From: Cellulomonas sp.
GTDB lineage: Bacteria > Actinomycetota > Actinomycetes > Actinomycetales > Cellulomonadaceae
Assembly (NCBI GenBank): GCA_017882855.1
Contig: JADGOR010000002.1
Coordinates: 1-64,000 of the forward strand
DNA: 64,000 nucleotides
Direction: 5' to 3'
A model generated the notes under the pieces. The model saw nothing but the letters and a program-made list of their open reading frames with translations, did not search any database and was not told where the DNA came from. This document shows positions 21,324-32,748 of this stretch, piece by piece. A program made the position numbers and the translations under genes. The first letter of the stretch is position 1; each line of letters opens with the position of its first letter.

Positions 21324-23354
21324 GTGTCGGACATCTCAGGCGCCATCAAGCGGTTGCTCGTCGGGCGACCCGTCCGCAGCGACAACCTCGGGCAGACGCT
21401 GCTCTCGAAGCGCATCGCGCTGCCGGTGTTCGGCTCGGACGCGATGTCCTCGGTCGCGTACGCACCGGACGAGATCCTGCTCACCTTGTCGATCGCCGGG
21501 TTGAGCGCAGCAGTCGTGTCGCCGTGGGTCGGACTGGGCGTCGTTCTCGTGCTGGGCACCGTGGTGGCCTCGTACCGGCAGAACGTGCACGCCTATCCGT
21601 CCGGCGGCGGCGGCTACGCGGTCGCGACGGAGAATCTCGGGCCGCGCGCCGGGCTGACCGTCGCGAGCGCGCTGATGGTGGACTATGTGCTGACGGTCGC
21701 GGTCTCGATCTCGCAGGCCGCGCAGTTTGCGGCGGCCGCAATTCCGTCCCTCCGCAATCACGAGGCCCCGTTCGCGATCGCCCTGATCGCGATCCTGGCC
21801 CTGATGAACCTCCGGGGAGTGCGGGAGTCGGGCACCGCCTTCGCGGCCCCCACCTACCTGTTCGTGATCGCGATCGGCGTGATGATCGTGGTCGGTTTCG
21901 GCCGGCTCGCGCTCGGCAACCTGCCGATGGCGGCGAGCTCGGTTCTCGACGTCGCGCCCCAGTCCGGCTTCGAGACCGGACTGATGGGGCTTGCGGGCGG
22001 GTTCTTGGTGCTGCGCGCGTTCGCCTCCGGTTGTGCGGCGCTGACCGGGGTGGAGGCCATCAGCAACGGCGTGCCGGCCTTCCGCAAGCCCAAGAGCAAG
22101 AACGCGGCGGCGACTCTCCTCTCGCTCGGCGTGCTCTCGGCGGTGATGATGATGGGCATCCTCGTGCTGAGCCGCATCACCCAGATCCACTTCGTGGACA
22201 TCCCAGCGTTGCAGCTCAGCAACGCCGGGGTGCCGGTGGGTGCCGACTACGTGCAGGACCCGGTGATCGGACAATTGGCCCACGCCATCTTCGCCGGGTT
22301 CCCGCTGGCCTTCTACTTCGTTGCCGCGGTGACCGGGCTGATCCTGGCGCTGGCCGCGAACACGGCGTTCAACGGCTTCCCGGTCCTCGGCTCGATCCTG
22401 GCCCGCGACGGATTCCTGCCGCGCCAGCTGCACACCCGCGGTGACCGGCTGGCCTACTCGAACGGCATCGTCGCGCTGGGGGCTGGGGCGATGGTGCTCG
22501 TTTGGGCGTTCGACGCACAGGTGACGCGGTTGATCCAGCTGTACATCGTCGGCGTCTTCGTCTCGTTCACGCTCAGCCAGCTCGGCATGGTGAAGCACTG
22601 GACTCGCCTGCTGGCGGAGGAGCACGACTCGCGGGCGCGGGGCAAGATGATGCGCGCCCGCGCGATCAACGGCTTCGGCATGGTCCTGACGTTCACGGTG
22701 CTCATCGTCGTTCTCGTCACGAAGTTCGTCCGCGGGGCGTGGATCGCGATCCTCGCCATGGTCGTGATCTTCACGATCATGCGGAGCATCCGGCAGCACT
22801 ACGACTCGGTGCACGAGGAGCTCGCTCTCGGCACCGAGCGGGAGGCTGCCCGCGCGCTGCCGAGCCGCGTGCACGCGATCGTGCTCGTCTCCCGGCTGCA
22901 CAAGCCGACGATGCGGGCCATCGCCTACGCCCGAGCGGCCCGATCGTCCGTCCTCGAGGCCGTCACCGTGGGTGTCGATCCGGGCGAGGTCGACGCGCTC
23001 CGCGCCGAGTGGACTGCTCTCGACCTGCCGGTGGCACTCAAGGTGCTCGACTCGCCCTATCGGGAGATCACCCGGCCGATCATCGACTACGTCCGCTCGA
23101 TCCGCCGCGAGAGTCCCCGAGACCTCGTCGTGGTGTACATCCCCGAGTACGTGGTCGGGCACTGGTGGGAACAGATCTTGCACAACCAGAGTGCCTTGCG
23201 CCTCAAGAGCCGCCTGCTGTTCACCCCGGGCGTCGTCGTCGCGTCGGTTCCGTGGCAGCTGCGCTCGTCGGAGCTCGCGGTGCGCGCCGCGGGAGATGCG
23301 GCCGGCTCGGACGTTGAGGCGTCGGCGCTCGGTCCGGATCCCGATGACGGCTGA
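21324..23354 (+). CDS. KimA-family potassium importer (APC superfamily)
   Basis: A 676-residue membrane protein with about 12 spans and a C-terminal cytoplasmic universal-stress-like domain (about 510-650). Stretches match what I recall of Bacillus subtilis KimA (YdaO): FGSDAMSSVAYAPDEIL, SYRQNVHAYPSGGGGYAVA, TGVEAISNGVPAF, and near the end QILHNQSALRLKSRLLF. KimA is a high-affinity proton/potassium symporter controlled by c-di-AMP. Databases often name this group simply APC or amino acid permease. The divergent RCK pair supports a potassium role. The 3' end overlaps the methyltransferase start by 11 bases. Confidence 0.82.
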   Translation: MSDISGAIKRLLVGRPVRSDNLGQTLLSKRIALPVFGSDAMSSVAYAPDEILLTLSIAGLSAAVVSPWVGLGVVLVLGTVVASYRQNVHAYPSGGGGYAVATENLGPRAGLTVASALMVDYVLTVAVSISQAAQFAAAAIPSLRNHEAPFAIALIAILALMNLRGVRESGTAFAAPTYLFVIAIGVMIVVGFGRLALGNLPMAASSVLDVAPQSGFETGLMGLAGGFLVLRAFASGCAALTGVEAISNGVPAFRKPKSKNAAATLLSLGVLSAVMMMGILVLSRITQIHFVDIPALQLSNAGVPVGADYVQDPVIGQLAHAIFAGFPLAFYFVAAVTGLILALAANTAFNGFPVLGSILARDGFLPRQLHTRGDRLAYSNGIVALGAGAMVLVWAFDAQVTRLIQLYIVGVFVSFTLSQLGMVKHWTRLLAEEHDSRARGKMMRARAINGFGMVLTFTVLIVVLVTKFVRGAWIAILAMVVIFTIMRSIRQHYDSVHEELALGTEREAARALPSRVHAIVLVSRLHKPTMRAIAYARAARSSVLEAVTVGVDPGEVDALRAEWTALDLPVALKVLDSPYREITRPIIDYVRSIRRESPRDLVVVYIPEYVVGHWWEQILHNQSALRLKSRLLFTPGVVVASVPWQLRSSELAVRAAGDAAGSDVEASALGPDPDDG

Positions 23355-24597
23355 GCCGGGGAACGGCGCGCTCGTCGCTCTCGACGTCGGGTCCGTCGCT
23401 CACGGCGGACACTGTGTGGCCCGGTACGACGGGCGAGTCGTCTTCGTCCGGCACTCGCTGCCCGGCGAGCGAGTGCTCGCGAGACTCACCGACGCCGCAC
23501 CGGACGCGCCGTTCTGGCGAGCGGACGCCGTCGAGGTCATCCAGGCGTCCCCGGACCGGGTCCCGTCGGCGTGGCCGGCGGCGGGTCCGGACGGCGTCGG
23601 CGGCGGGGAGCTCTCGCACGTCTCGCTGGACGGTCAGCGCCGGTGGAAGGCCGCCGTTGTCGCCGAGCAGCTGCAACGGCTGGCCCGGATCGAGCGCGAC
23701 GTGGTCGTCGAGGCCGCACCGGGCGACGCGGAACGCGGCGGACTCGGCTGGCGGACCCGGATCGAGCTCGTGACGGACGCACGTGGGAAGGCGGGGATGA
23801 CCCGGCACCGGAGTCACGAGGTCGTCCCGCTCACGTCGATGCCGCTCGCGAGCGAGGCGATCGCGGACCTCGGACTCTTCGACCGGAGCTGGCCCGCGGA
23901 CACCCGTATCTCGGTCGCGGCGCCCGGATCCGGCGACCGACCGGTGATCCTCGTCGGCGGCGCGGTGTGGGGGAGCCACGGCCCGGACAATCGCGCGAAC
24001 GCGCGCACCTCGGTCCGCGAAGAGGTCGAGGCGGCGGGCGAGACGTACCGCTACCGGGTCGCCGCCGATGGGTTCTGGCAGGTTCACCGCTCCGCACCGA
24101 CCGTGCTCGTCAGCGCCGTGATGGCGGCGCTCGGGGATGTCGACGGCGCGCGCGTGCTGGACCTCTACTCGGGCTCGGGACTCTTCACGGCGCCGCTGGG
24201 TCGGGCGGTCGGGCGGAGCGGCTCGGTGATCGCGATCGAGGGTGACCCGCGGGCGGTCCGCGACGCGCGGCGCAACGTGCACGAGAGTCGCCACGTCGAG
24301 CTCCGGCACGGCCCCGTCGAGCGGTTGCTGGCGGCCGAGGAGGGTGGCGCGGTCGATGCAGTCGTGCTGGACCCGCCGCGGGTGGGCGCCGGACGCCGCG
24401 TCATCGGTCAGATCGCGGAGCGAGCCCCGGAGCGTGTCGTCTACGTCGCGTGCGACCCGGCGGCCCTGGCGCGCGACCTCTCCTACCTGGCCGGGCACGG
24501 GTACCGGCTCGAGGACCTTCGCGCGTTCGACCTCTTCCCGATGACCCACCACGTCGAGTGCGTGGCCGTCCTTTCGCGAGTGCGCGGGACGGATTAG
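23344..24597 (+). CDS. TrmA/RlmD-like RNA uracil-C5 methyltransferase, without the Fe-S cysteines
   Basis: A 417-residue SAM-dependent methyltransferase. An N-terminal TRAM domain (about 10-60) precedes the catalytic Rossmann domain, with VLDLYSGSGLF as the SAM loop, DPPRVGAG, and the nucleophile Cys in VYVACDPAALARDL. In RlmD/RumA-type enzymes four Cys hold a 4Fe-4S cluster after the TRAM domain. Here the matching stretch reads SAWPAAGPDGVGGGELSHVS, with no Cys, so the cluster is absent. The target (m5U in 23S rRNA or tRNA) cannot be decided from sequence. The gene ends in TAG, which also begins the -10 box of aconitase. Confidence 0.88.
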   Translation: MTAEPGNGALVALDVGSVAHGGHCVARYDGRVVFVRHSLPGERVLARLTDAAPDAPFWRADAVEVIQASPDRVPSAWPAAGPDGVGGGELSHVSLDGQRRWKAAVVAEQLQRLARIERDVVVEAAPGDAERGGLGWRTRIELVTDARGKAGMTRHRSHEVVPLTSMPLASEAIADLGLFDRSWPADTRISVAAPGSGDRPVILVGGAVWGSHGPDNRANARTSVREEVEAAGETYRYRVAADGFWQVHRSAPTVLVSAVMAALGDVDGARVLDLYSGSGLFTAPLGRAVGRSGSVIAIEGDPRAVRDARRNVHESRHVELRHGPVERLLAAEEGGAVDAVVLDPPRVGAGRRVIGQIAERAPERVVYVACDPAALARDLSYLAGHGYRLEDLRAFDLFPMTHHVECVAVLSRVRGTD

Positions 24598-24600
24598 GAT
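24595..24600 (+). promoter_or_regulatory. -10 element (TAGGAT) for aconitase
   Basis: TAGGAT overlaps the stop codon of the methyltransferase gene. The predicted start of transcription (about 24607) falls inside the 18-bp palindrome that follows. Confidence 0.45.
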
Positions 24601-24601
24601 G

Positions 24602-24619
24602 TATCTTGATATCAAGATA
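24602..24619. promoter_or_regulatory. Perfect 18-bp palindrome, probable repressor operator for aconitase
   Basis: TATCTTGAT|ATCAAGATA is a perfect inverted repeat, AT-rich in a roughly 70% GC genome, and lies just after a -10 box and 17 bases before the aconitase start. The size and symmetry fit a MarR-family dimer. In Streptomyces coelicolor the MarR-type regulator TamR controls aconitase and other citrate-cycle genes and binds sites with a TTGAxxTCAA core, as far as I recall. A repressor acting here is likely; its identity is inferred. Confidence 0.75.
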
Positions 24620-24636
24620 AATCGGGGGAGAGCGGC

Positions 24637-27393
<2,757 letters not shown>

Positions 27394-27550: not shown

Positions 27551-29443
27551 ATGGGAGTCCTGGACCAGATCCGTGGACCCGCCGACCTGCGTCGGCTCGG
27601 GCACCGGGCCCTGGTCCAGCTGGCGCAGGAGATCCGTGAGTTCCTGGTCCAGTCCGTCTCGAAGACCGGCGGCCACCTCGGGCCGAACCTCGGCGTCGTC
27701 GAGCTGACGATCGCTCTGCACCGGGTGTTCGAGTCGCCCAAGGACCGGATCGTGTTCGACACCGGTCACCAGGCCTACGTGCACAAGCTGCTCACCGGAC
27801 GCAAGGACTTCTCCGAGCTCCGCCAGCGCGGTGGCCTCTCCGGCTACCCCAACCGGGGCGAGTCCGAGCACGACATCGTGGAGAACTCGCACGCCTCGAC
27901 CGCGCTGTCCTGGGCGGACGGCATCGCCAAGGCCTATGCGCTGCGCGGGCTCACCGATCGCCACGTCGTAGCGGTGATCGGCGACGGTGCGCTGACCGGC
28001 GGCATGGCCTGGGAGGCGCTCAACAACATCGCCGACGGGCACGACCGTCGCCTCGTCATCGTCGTCAACGACAACGGGCGGTCCTACGCTCCGACGATCG
28101 GCGGACTGGCGCGGCACCTCGACTCGTTGCGCGTCGCCCCCGGCTACGAGAACGTGCTGTCGTGGGGGAAGCGCTTCCTCAAGCGCACCGGGCCACCCGG
28201 CCGACTCGTCTATGAGGCCTTGCACGGCCTGAAGAAGGGCATCAAGGACGTCGTCGCGCCGCAGGGCATGTTCGAGGACCTCGGGATCAAGTACCTCGGA
28301 CCGGTCGACGGTCACGACGTCGAAGCGGTCGAGCGGGTGCTCCGGGTGGCCAAGCAGTACGACGGTCCGGTGATCGTGCACGTGATCACCGAGAAGGGGC
28401 GCGGCTACGTCCCGGCCGAGGAGCACGTTGCCGACAGGTTCCACGCCGTCGGCCGGATCCACCCCGAGACCGGCCTGCCCATCGCGCCCGCGCGGTTCGG
28501 CTGGACCTCGGTGTTCGCCGACGAGATGGTCAAGATCGGTCGCCGGCGTCCCGACGTCGTCGCGGTGACCGCCGCGATGCTCGAGCCGGTCGGCCTGGCG
28601 CCGTTCGCGACCGAGTTCCCGAGTCGGATCTTCGACGTCGGGATCGCCGAGCAGCACGCTGCGACCTCCGCCGCCGGGATGGCGTTCGCCGGGCTGCACC
28701 CCGTGGTGGCGGTGTACGCGACGTTCCTCAACCGTGCGTTCGACCAGGTGCTGCTCGATGTGGGCCTGCACCGGGCCGGGGTGACCTTCGTGCTGGACCG
28801 GGCCGGCATCACCGGCGACGACGGGCCGAGCCACCACGGCATCTGGGACCTCGCGCTGTTGCGGATGGTCCCCGGCCTCAAGCTTGCTGCGCCGCGCGAC
28901 GAGGACACGCTGCGAAGTGCGCTGCGCGCTGCCGTCGAGGTGGACGACGCTCCGACCGTGATCCGCTACCCCAAAGGTCCGTTGCCGGAGCCCATCCCAG
29001 CGATCGACGCGCTCGAGGGCGTGGACATCCTCGGCCGCCACGGCGAGGGGACCGGCCCCGACGTGCTGATCGTCGGGATCGGCGCCTTGGTCCCGCTCGC
29101 GCTCGAGGTTGGCGCGGAGCTGGCCGCGCACGGCACCCGCGCCACGGTGGTCGACCCTCGCTGGGTCCTTCCGGTCGAGCCCGCGCTGCTCAAGCTGATC
29201 GGGGAGCACACCGTCACGGTGACGCTCGAGGACGGCATCGTCGACGGTGGGATCGGCGCGCTCGTCGCCCAACGAGCGCTCGAGCACGGTCTTCGCTCAC
29301 CCGTGCACGCGATCGGCGTCCCGTTGCGCTTCATCCAGCACTCGAGCCGGAACGAGATCCTCGACGATCTGGGTCTTCGGGCCGGTGACGTCGCCCGCGA
29401 CGTGCTCGCTGTCGTGGCCCGCCTTCAGACCGGTTCGGACTAG
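27551..29443 (+). CDS. dxs: 1-deoxy-D-xylulose-5-phosphate synthase
   Basis: Condenses pyruvate and glyceraldehyde 3-phosphate to DXP, the first step of the MEP isoprenoid pathway and also a precursor for thiamine and pyridoxal in some bacteria. The 630-residue protein has the transketolase-like layout: the early [18 protein letters not shown], the thiamine-diphosphate motif [16 protein letters not shown], the catalytic Glu region [12 protein letters not shown], and a C-terminal transketolase domain. The ATG at 27551 follows a GGAG. The upstream in-frame extension overlaps aconitase and is not coding. It may be co-transcribed with acnA or use its own promoter. Confidence 0.96.
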
Positions 29444-29467
29444 CGCGCGCCCCCCAAAAGTGCAGTG

Positions 29468-29486
29468 TGACCTGCGTCTCAGGTCA
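29468..29486. promoter_or_regulatory. Inverted repeat TGACCTG-N5-CAGGTCA upstream of pflB
   Basis: A perfect 7-bp inverted repeat with a 5-base spacer lies 99 bases before the pflB start. It could bind a dimeric regulator that responds to oxygen or redox. It does not match the Rex, FNR or DosR consensus sequences I know. Confidence 0.5.
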
Positions 29487-29585
29487 AAGGTCCCATGTAT
29501 TTGCAGACCCCGAGACGTAGCGTCGGAGACGTCGGTACAACGGCGTCGATCGCCCCACCAGGGCGAGTTGAGGGAGTGCAGCGCG

Positions 29586-31868
29586 ATGGCCATCACCACC
29601 GTAGAGACCAGCAACCCGGAGCATGGATCCGAGGTGGCCCAGGAGAGCGCATGGCGCTCGTTCGCCAGTGGCCCCTGGCAGGACGGCATCGACGTCCGAG
29701 ACTTCATCCAACGCAACTACGAGCCCTTCCCCGGTGACTCGTCCTTCCTCGCCGGCCCGACCGAGCGCACCACCGCGATGTGGAACAAGCTCTCGGAGCT
29801 GTTCCCCGCCGAGCGCGAACGTGGCGTCTACGACGTGGACGCGACGACCCCGTCGTCCATCACGGCGCACGCACCGGGCTACATCGACCAGGCGCACGAG
29901 CTGATCGTCGGCCTGCAGACGGACGCGCCGCTCAAGCGCGCGATCATGCCGTTCGGCGGCTGGCGGATGGTGGCCAAGGCGCTCGAGACCTACGGCTACC
30001 CGGTCGACCCCGAGCTCGAGAAGATCTTCACCGAGTACCGCAAGACGCACAACGACGGAGTCTTCGAGGTCTACCCGCCGAACGTGCGCGCGGCCCGCAG
30101 CAGCCACATCATCACCGGTCTGCCGGACGCATACGGCCGCGGCCGCATCATCGGCGACTACCGGCGTGTCGCCCTGTACGGCGTCGACGCCCTCATCGCC
30201 ACGAAGAAGCTCGAGCGCATGGAGATGGACATGCAGCGCTCGACCGAAGACGTCATCCGGGACCGCGAGGAGAACGCCGAGCAGATCAAGGCGCTGGGCG
30301 AGCTCAAGAAGATGGCGGCGTCCTACGGTTTCGACATCTCCGCGCCGGCCCAGAACGCCCGCGAGGCCGTGCAGTGGCTCTACTTCGCCTACCTCGGTGC
30401 GGTCAAGGAGCAGAACGGCGCGGCGATGTCTCTCGGCCGCACCTCGACCTTCCTCGACGTCTTCGTCCAGCGCGACATCGCGGAGGGCGTCCTCACCGAG
30501 GAGTCGGCGCAGGAGATCATCGACGATTTCGTGATCAAGCTGCGGATCGTCCGGTTCCTGCGCACTCCCGAGTACGACGCCCTGTTCTCGGGCGACCCGA
30601 CGTGGGTGACGGAGTCGATCGGTGGCATGTCCGAGGACGGGCGCCCGCTCGTCACCAAGACGTCCTACCGGTTCCTGCAGACGCTGTACAACCTCGGCCC
30701 GGCGCCCGAGCCGAACCTGACCGTGCTGTGGAGCGAGCGCCTGCCGGAGGGCTTCAAGCGCTTCTGCGCGCAGGTCTCGATCGACACCTCGGCCATCCAG
30801 TACGAGTCCGACGAGCTGATCCGGCCGGCCTGGGGCGACGACGCTGCGATCGCGTGCTGCGTCTCGGCCATGGCTGTCGGCAAGCAGATGCAGTTCTTCG
30901 GTGCGCGGGTCAACCTCGCGAAGTCGCTGCTGTACGCGATCAACGGCGGCCGGGACGAGATCAGCGGCAAGCAGGTGGCACCGTTCGCCGCGCCGCTCGC
31001 CGGCGAGGTGCTCGTCTACAGCGAGGTCCGCGCCGCGTACGACAAGCTGCTCGACTGGCTCGCCGAGACCTACGTCGACGCCTTGAACTGCATTCACTAC
31101 ATGCACGACAAGTACGCGTACGAGCGGCTCGAGATGGCGCTGCACGACCAGGAGATCCTGCGCACGATGGCCTGCGGGGTCGCCGGCCTCAGCGTGGCCG
31201 TGGACTCGCTGGCCGCGATCAAGTACGCGACGGTCCGACCGGTGCGCGACGAGACCGGCCTGGTCGTGGACTACGACGTCGAGGGTGAGTACCCCACGTA
31301 CGGCAACGACGACGACCGCGCCGACGACATCGCAGCGGATCTGGTGCGCACCTTCATGGACAAGATCCGTCGCCAGCACACCTACCGCAACGCTCTGCAC
31401 ACCCAGTCGGTCCTGACGATCACGTCGAACGTGGTCTACGGCAAGCACACCGGGAACACCCCGGACGGCCGTCGCAAGGGTGAGCCGTTCGCACCCGGTG
31501 CGAACCCGATGAACGGCCGCGACACGCATGGTCTGCTCGCGTCGGCGCTGAGCGTCGCGAAGCTGCCCTACTCCGAGGCGATGGACGGCATCTCGCTCAC
31601 CGCGACGGTCGTTCCGTCAGGCCTCGGCCGGGTCCGCGACGAGCAGATCACCAACCTGGTCGGGCTGCTCGACGCATACAACATGTCCGCGGGATTCCAC
31701 GTGAACATCAACGTGATCAACCGCGACACACTCGAGGACGCCATGGAGCACCCGGAGAAGTACCCGCAGCTGACCATCCGGGTCTCCGGCTATGCCGTGA
31801 ACTTCGTCCGGTTGACCCGCGAGCAGCAGCGCGACGTGCTCTCTCGGACCTTCCACGGCGGAATCTGA
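29586..31868 (+). CDS. pflB: Formate C-acetyltransferase (pyruvate formate-lyase)
   Basis: A glycyl-radical enzyme that splits pyruvate with CoA into acetyl-CoA and formate under anoxic conditions. The protein has 760 residues, the normal PflB length. The catalytic cysteine pair lies in [10 protein letters not shown] (Cys424-Cys425) and the radical glycine in RVSGYAVNF (Gly735, matching Gly734 of E. coli). A GAGGGAG ribosome-binding site precedes the ATG. The activase gene follows 67 bases downstream. PFL is uncommon in aerobic actinomycetes, so the pair suggests a facultative lifestyle. Its base composition does not differ visibly from its neighbours. Confidence 0.97.
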
Positions 31869-31935
31869 TCGGGGCGTCAGTCCTCGAGGCGACGGCGACC
31901 CGGTCCGGGGTCGCGGCGGCAGGGAAGGAGATCCG

Positions 31936-32748
31936 ATGAGCATCGACGTACCGCTGCAGAGCCGTACCGACGTGATCGACGCGGACGACGACCTGCGCGC
32001 AACCGCTCAGCGCAGCCCCGGGGACACCGGGGCCGTGCACTCGTGGGAGCTCGTCACCTCGGTCGACGGCCCAGGAACGCGGCTCACGCTCTTCCTGAAC
32101 GGGTGCCCGCTGCGCTGCCAGTACTGCCAGAACCCCGACACGTGGCGGATGCGCGACGGCATCACGCACACCGTCGCCGAGGTGATGGATCGCATCCGCC
32201 GCTACGTCCCGGTGCTCAAGGCGACGGGTGGCGGGGTCACGATCTCCGGTGGCGAACCGCTGCTCCAGTCGGCGTTCGTCGCCCGGGTGCTCCACGATTG
32301 CCGCGAGCTGGGTCTGCACACGGCGCTGGACACCTCCGGCTTCCTCGGTGCGCGAGCGAGCGACGAGATGCTCCGTGACGTGAGCCTCGTCCTTCTCGAC
32401 GTCAAGTCCGGACTTTCCGAGACCTACCGTGAGGTCACCGGGCGCGAGCTCGCGCCGACGCTCGAGTTCGGCCGGCGCCTGTCCGACCTGGGGGTTCCGA
32501 TCTGGGTGCGATTTGTCCTGGTGCCGGGTCTGACGGACGAGGTCGAGAACGTCGAGGCGGTGGCGTCGTTCGTGGAGAGCCTGGCCACGGTCGAGCGGGT
32601 CGAGGTCCTGCCCTTCCACCAGATGGGGCGCGACAAGTGGCGCCGGATGGGCGAGCCGTATCGGCTCGAGGCCACTGAGCCGCCCACACCGGAGCTCATC
32701 TCCCGGGTGTGCGACCAGTTCGCCGCTCACGGCCTGACGGTCTTCTAG
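31936..32748 (+). CDS. pflA: Pyruvate formate-lyase activating enzyme (radical SAM)
   Basis: Introduces the glycyl radical into PflB using SAM and a 4Fe-4S cluster. The 270-residue protein has the CxxxCxxC motif (Cys57, Cys61, Cys64 in NGCPLRCQYCQNP), the GGE motif (SGGEPLLQ) and other PflA segments such as DTSGF and LLDVKS. An ideal AAGGAGAT ribosome-binding site precedes the ATG. The first 30 residues are an extra, non-conserved extension compared with E. coli PflA. It works with the adjacent pflB. Confidence 0.96.
   Translation: MSIDVPLQSRTDVIDADDDLRATAQRSPGDTGAVHSWELVTSVDGPGTRLTLFLNGCPLRCQYCQNPDTWRMRDGITHTVAEVMDRIRRYVPVLKATGGGVTISGGEPLLQSAFVARVLHDCRELGLHTALDTSGFLGARASDEMLRDVSLVLLDVKSGLSETYREVTGRELAPTLEFGRRLSDLGVPIWVRFVLVPGLTDEVENVEAVASFVESLATVERVEVLPFHQMGRDKWRRMGEPYRLEATEPPTPELISRVCDQFAAHGLTVF

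Follow-up and report, generated by a model that had tools for sequence, protein, structure and literature searches.

A predicted TamR-type operator between a trmA-like gene and acnA in Cellulomonas sp. and its conservation in relatives

Results

A perfect palindrome upstream of acnA

The window analysed here, a stretch of 64,000 nt from a Cellulomonas genome, carries the aconitate hydratase gene acnA downstream of a gene for a trmA-like RNA methyltransferase (Table 1). The latter ends 39 nt before acnA, so that read-through into acnA is possible. Between the trmA-like stop at 24597 and the acnA ATG at 24637, this 39-bp gap contains TATCTTGATATCAAGATA, a perfect 18-bp palindrome that is present exactly where the original prediction had placed it. 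Its dyad symmetry extends to 26 bp (24598-24623), with 92% complementarity and one mismatched pair. When up to three mismatches are allowed, TATCTTGATATCAAGATA has a single match in the window and none in 100 shuffles, and this genome, of 2.36 Mb and 90.6% complete, has a single exact copy of its 14-bp core.

Table 1. Features around the acnA operator, in window positions
Feature	Positions	Strand	Basis
trmA-like RNA methyltransferase gene, upstream; name from reading, start uncertain	22972..24597	+	
Predicted -10 element TAGGAT, ending 1 nt before the operator	24595..24600	+	inference
Operator, predicted TamR dimer site, TATCTTGATATCAAGATA	24602..24619	.	palindrome, shuffles, conservation, 26-bp symmetry
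Likely ribosome binding site GGGGGAGAG	24624..24632	+	sequence
acnA, aconitate hydratase, predicted target gene	24637..27393	+	NCBIfam and Pfam match (AcnA)

The palindrome had also been claimed to overlap the acnA transcription start. The TAGGAT hexamer that ends 1 nt before it makes initiation near 24607, inside the palindrome, plausible; a generic sigma-70 scan of the window gave no promoter-like match, and the acnA start site thus stays a prediction.

Elsewhere in the window, downstream of a dxs-like gene, lie a pyruvate formate-lyase-like gene and an activating-enzyme-like (radical SAM) gene (29247-32748; names from reading), which suggests an anaerobic pyruvate metabolism.

Conservation of the site before acnA in the family

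Orthologous acnA was found in 59 of the 61 family genomes, this one included (G025 and G035 gave no acnA match), and the dyad stands upstream of it in all 59. G055 carries an additional, distant acnA (67% identical) with no dyad upstream, which is left out of this count. At the 14 scored positions, 51 of the 59 sites carry no mismatch, five carry one and three carry two, while the dyad core begins from 34 to 219 nt ahead of the projected acnA start codon. Thirteen of the 18 dyad columns are invariant across these sites, and the flanking columns hold much less information, except for a promoter-like block. The commonest form in the relatives is TATCTTGACGTCAAGATA, and an operator consensus, TATCTYGAYRTCRAGATA, is now available. 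In a search of the family genomes, ATCTTGATATCAAGAT with at most two mismatches was present in 54 of 61, against five for the reversed pattern.

Two predicted promoter positions around the operator

In 43 of the 59 genomes, against 8.0 expected from shuffling, a TANNNT hexamer follows the dyad at a distance of no more than 20 nt; in 36 of those 43 the distance is exactly 7 nt, with TATGCT in 31. In 12 genomes, including that of the window, the hexamer (TAGGAT, TACGAT or TAGCAT) precedes the dyad and stops 1 nt short of it (0.4 expected from shuffling). No genome has a hexamer at both positions and four have it at neither. With the hexamer downstream, TTGACG of the dyad would serve as the -35 element; the spacer, of 15, would fall short of the usual 16-18. 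With the hexamer upstream, as in the window, the dyad would sit on the transcription start. Either arrangement suits a repressor that blocks the promoter. That the predicted promoter seems to occupy two positions around an unchanged operator is the unusual detail of this system.

A MarR-family regulator and its own upstream site

A profile search of the Cellulomonas genome gave six matches to PF01047. One of them, P0001, is a MarR protein of 183 aa (G000:C74:9230-9778) that scores above the cut-off with both PF12802 (51.2 bits) and PF01047 (33.7 bits). The solved chains nearest to it are 8ylh and 8ylf, then 5dd8 and 2fbk (E 6.8e-10 for the last, which we take to be HucR). Orthologues of P0001, 56-77% identical, are present in 60 of the 61 family genomes, G027 giving no match; further matches at 37-49% identity are paralogues.

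The original prediction expected the motif in front of a marR-like gene, and this was borne out. Using a position weight matrix (PWM) built from 58 acnA sites, with the window's own site left out, we found a site upstream of the P0001 orthologue gene, hereafter tamR, in 55 of the 59 family genomes examined, at a PWM score above 4, a cut chosen once the scores were known. The reversed control gave 0 of 59, with a best score of 0.06. Six of the 55 sites are barely above the cut, and 37 of the 59 tamR regions score higher than any of 20 paralogue regions, among which the maximum is 11.5. The exact core CTYGANNTCRAG precedes tamR in 53 of the 59. This set of 59 does not include G027 or G051, which has a partial match. 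The four genomes with no site before tamR are G004, G008, G032 and G049 (loci L181, L109, L098 and L161). There, another reading frame, of TetR type by reading, seems to precede tamR or to overlap with it.

In most of the further loci inspected, the tamR orthologue is accompanied by tam, which encodes trans-aconitate methyltransferase. The nearest model for the tam query is NCBIfam trans-aconitate 2-methyltransferase, at a score under its cut-off (252.6 against 320 bits). Among the 29 best-scoring orthologue loci of the class search (L221-L249), the site is found in 28 and tam in 22, in 21 of them divergent. Among the best 80 loci of titled genome records, 79 from Streptomyces and one from an "Actinobacteria bacterium", the site lies upstream of the tamR orthologue in 79, and in 76 a divergent tam lies no more than 600 nt away. 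The 80 loci encode close relatives of L228, a Streptomyces-type protein with its gene divergent from tam, with which P0001 shares about 64% identity. These comparisons, made through L228, support P0001 as an orthologue of the protein encoded divergently from tam in Streptomyces.

Other sites in the genome and in relatives

The degenerate motif TCTYGANNTCRAGW occurs at five places in the Cellulomonas genome, against one for the control: before acnA, before icd, before tamR and, for the other two, within reading frames. Of the five, the acnA, icd and tamR sites alone exceed a PWM score of 4. The icd gene encodes an NADP-dependent isocitrate dehydrogenase, and its site core begins 97 nt before the start. 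The icd and tamR sites are weaker than that of acnA, with CTCGA half-sites and PWM scores of 7.3 and 9.4, against 37.4 for acnA. The two matches inside reading frames (a pflA-like gene at window position 32394, and L188) were not counted as regulatory. A looser whole-genome search with ATCTTGANNTCAAGAT and three mismatches, which gave 19 places against eight for the reversed control, was too noisy to be used. Sites had further been expected before the citrate synthase and malate dehydrogenase genes; these are absent from the whole-genome degenerate matches.

Among the motif matches listed for the family, 66 of 71 loci lie before acnA (40), monomeric icd (11), tam (9), dimeric icd (4) or tamR (2), so that 15 of the 71 precede an icd gene. 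One monomeric icd, incomplete at the edge of its locus, matches a single model, at 826.7 bits against a cut-off of 950. The five remaining loci, named from reading, comprise two VOC-like/moeA-like pairs, one ROK-like/sugar-binding-like pair and two that seem to lie inside reading frames. In the first two (L038 and L071, from two relatives), the motif stands between divergent VOC/glyoxalase-like and moeA-like genes; this pair is a possible further target. As for tam, no match was found in the 90.6%-complete Cellulomonas genome in a search run without a positive control. A 25-aa probe detected tam in 17 of the 61 family genomes, this genome not being among them.

Co-occurrence of operator and regulator across the class

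With at most one mismatch, TATCTTGANNTCAAGATA is present in 154 of 296 class genomes, and the reversed pattern in two. P0001 orthologues were counted in 187 of the 296 at E <1e-42, a cut chosen on seeing a gap between 4.4e-43 and 3.6e-39; the search scored up to 11 candidates per genome, and 78 of the genomes with no match were taken as the complement. Motif and orthologue occur together in 151 genomes, the motif alone in three, the protein alone in 36 and neither in 106. Thus, 106 of the 142 genomes without the motif at this tolerance are also without the orthologue. The three motif-only genomes are G146, G157 and G179, of which G157 is 77% and G179 82% complete. Whole families in the sample, f10 and f24 among them, have neither. 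The Fisher value for the co-occurrence, 3e-44, overstates independence because the genomes are related.

Discussion

We propose, with high confidence, that a TamR-type repressor of the MarR family controls acnA and has its operator in the palindrome upstream of this gene. The proposal is built on sequence comparison: a conserved operator, a linked regulator gene, a predicted autoregulatory site and shared targets. The reading of the palindrome as a site for a MarR/TamR-type repressor, already put forward in the original prediction, is supported by the site that precedes acnA in all 59 family genomes with the orthologue and the MarR gene in 55 of 59, by the tam-tamR pair in 76 of 80 loci, by the co-occurrence across the class and by the icd and tamR sites of the genome itself. 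That the motif might be missing before acnA in relatives and before other metabolic genes had been named as the outcome speaking against it; the 59 of 59 acnA genes, together with the icd sites, show the opposite.

Three other explanations of the palindrome were weighed. Chance can practically be dismissed. In its strong form the palindrome does occur only once in the genome, but none of 100 shuffles reproduced it and it precedes acnA in every one of the 59 family genomes with the orthologous gene, so that chance is no explanation, and the class-wide count of 154 against 2 of 296 genomes refutes it further. It is also very improbable that the dyad acts as an RNA hairpin (a terminator, an attenuator or a stability element) in a trmA-acnA transcript. 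A 7-bp stem with a 4-nt loop can indeed be drawn in a 51-nt piece, of -12.4 kcal/mol in all (z -2.17), and only 4 of 200 shuffles are as good. No terminator-like match was found, however, and the dyad also precedes icd, tam and tamR. Moreover, in the 43 genomes with a -10-like hexamer downstream, the dyad would lie outside the transcript from that promoter, ahead of its start; as this applies to most relatives, a hairpin is unlikely as its common function.

More consideration is due to another MarR/PecS/HucR-type paralogue binding the acnA site, which we nonetheless hold to be improbable. The Vibrio PecS site, as printed in PMC6391409 (TATCTTTATATTAAGATA), differs from the acnA site only at positions 7 and 12, and two of the 20 paralogue upstream regions exceed a PWM score of 4 (at 11.5 and 5.9). 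On the other side, the remaining five MarR-profile matches of the genome have no site in their loci (1.7-3.2 kb), the genome holds no second P0001 match at E<=1e-20, and in relatives nine of the 20 paralogues have a different dyad, CTTCCNNGGAAG, upstream.

The putative recognition helix of TamR, TSGTMTNR(I/V)DRL, carries Asn in 58 of 59 loci, the window's own protein being counted once in this alignment; we assign this stretch to the recognition helix from MarR structures. Among the paralogues in relatives (L330-L369), all nine with CTTCCNNGGAAG upstream have Lys in place of this Asn, as do five of the 11 paralogues without that dyad. Asn versus Lys may set the specificity within this MarR subfamily, and this position is a candidate residue.

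Similar systems have been described. The primary TamR papers reportedly give as targets aconitase, tam, isocitrate and malate dehydrogenase and malate synthase, isocitrate dehydrogenase being said to come from the 2015 paper. Our literature search on the TamR regulon gave only a review (PMC5487221) and short mentions, and found no published letters of the TamR operator. According to these sources, TamR of S. coelicolor represses aconitase and other citric-acid-cycle genes, with citrate and trans-aconitate attenuating its DNA binding (PMC5487221), it responds to citrate and related compounds rather than to urate (PMC6391409), and it is named as SCO3133 in a proteomics paper (PMC9739823). The system described here resembles that regulon in its MarR protein, close to the Streptomyces-type TamR, in the divergent tamR-tam arrangement of Streptomyces records with the motif upstream, and in the operators of relatives before aconitase, icd, tam and tamR, which agree with the published role as far as these sources give it. 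It differs in that no tam was found in the Cellulomonas genome, and in that the sites found there cover only acnA, icd and tamR. The urate-responsive MarR proteins PecS, HucR and MftR are also related, through the match of P0001 to 2fbk and through the TATCTT...AAGATA shared with the PecS site as printed. Unlike in those systems, operator positions 7 and 12 differ and the targets here belong to central metabolism. Control of aconitase has another known form in Corynebacterium, where AcnR, a TetR-type protein, represses the aconitase gene; both its protein family and its operator differ from those of TamR.

We can propose the following mechanism, in which TamR binding, repression of acnA and the start site are inferred and the ligands are taken from the S. 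coelicolor literature. A TamR homodimer bound to the 18-bp dyad, at the core promoter of acnA, would block RNA polymerase. Citrate or trans-aconitate would build up, for instance when oxidative stress strips aconitase of its iron-sulfur cluster. Ligand-bound TamR would then leave the DNA, and acnA, icd and tamR would be derepressed together.

Given its strong conservation, the predicted TamR site is very probably a genuine switch acting on the citric acid cycle. This kind of switch has already been described in Streptomyces, and the acnA site of this Cellulomonas is a further case. We give an even chance to a broader reading, in which TamR would be a general, probably ancestral, aconitase regulator of the whole class rather than one peculiar to Streptomyces, and would have been retained or lost along with its operator. 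Constraint on the operator would be strong enough for the promoter to have shifted around it, placing the repressor on the -35 region in one group and on the transcription start in the other, to which this genome belongs. The comparison made here turns a regulator known chiefly through two primary studies, both on a single Streptomyces species, into a testable class-wide rule for the control of aconitase and isocitrate dehydrogenase.
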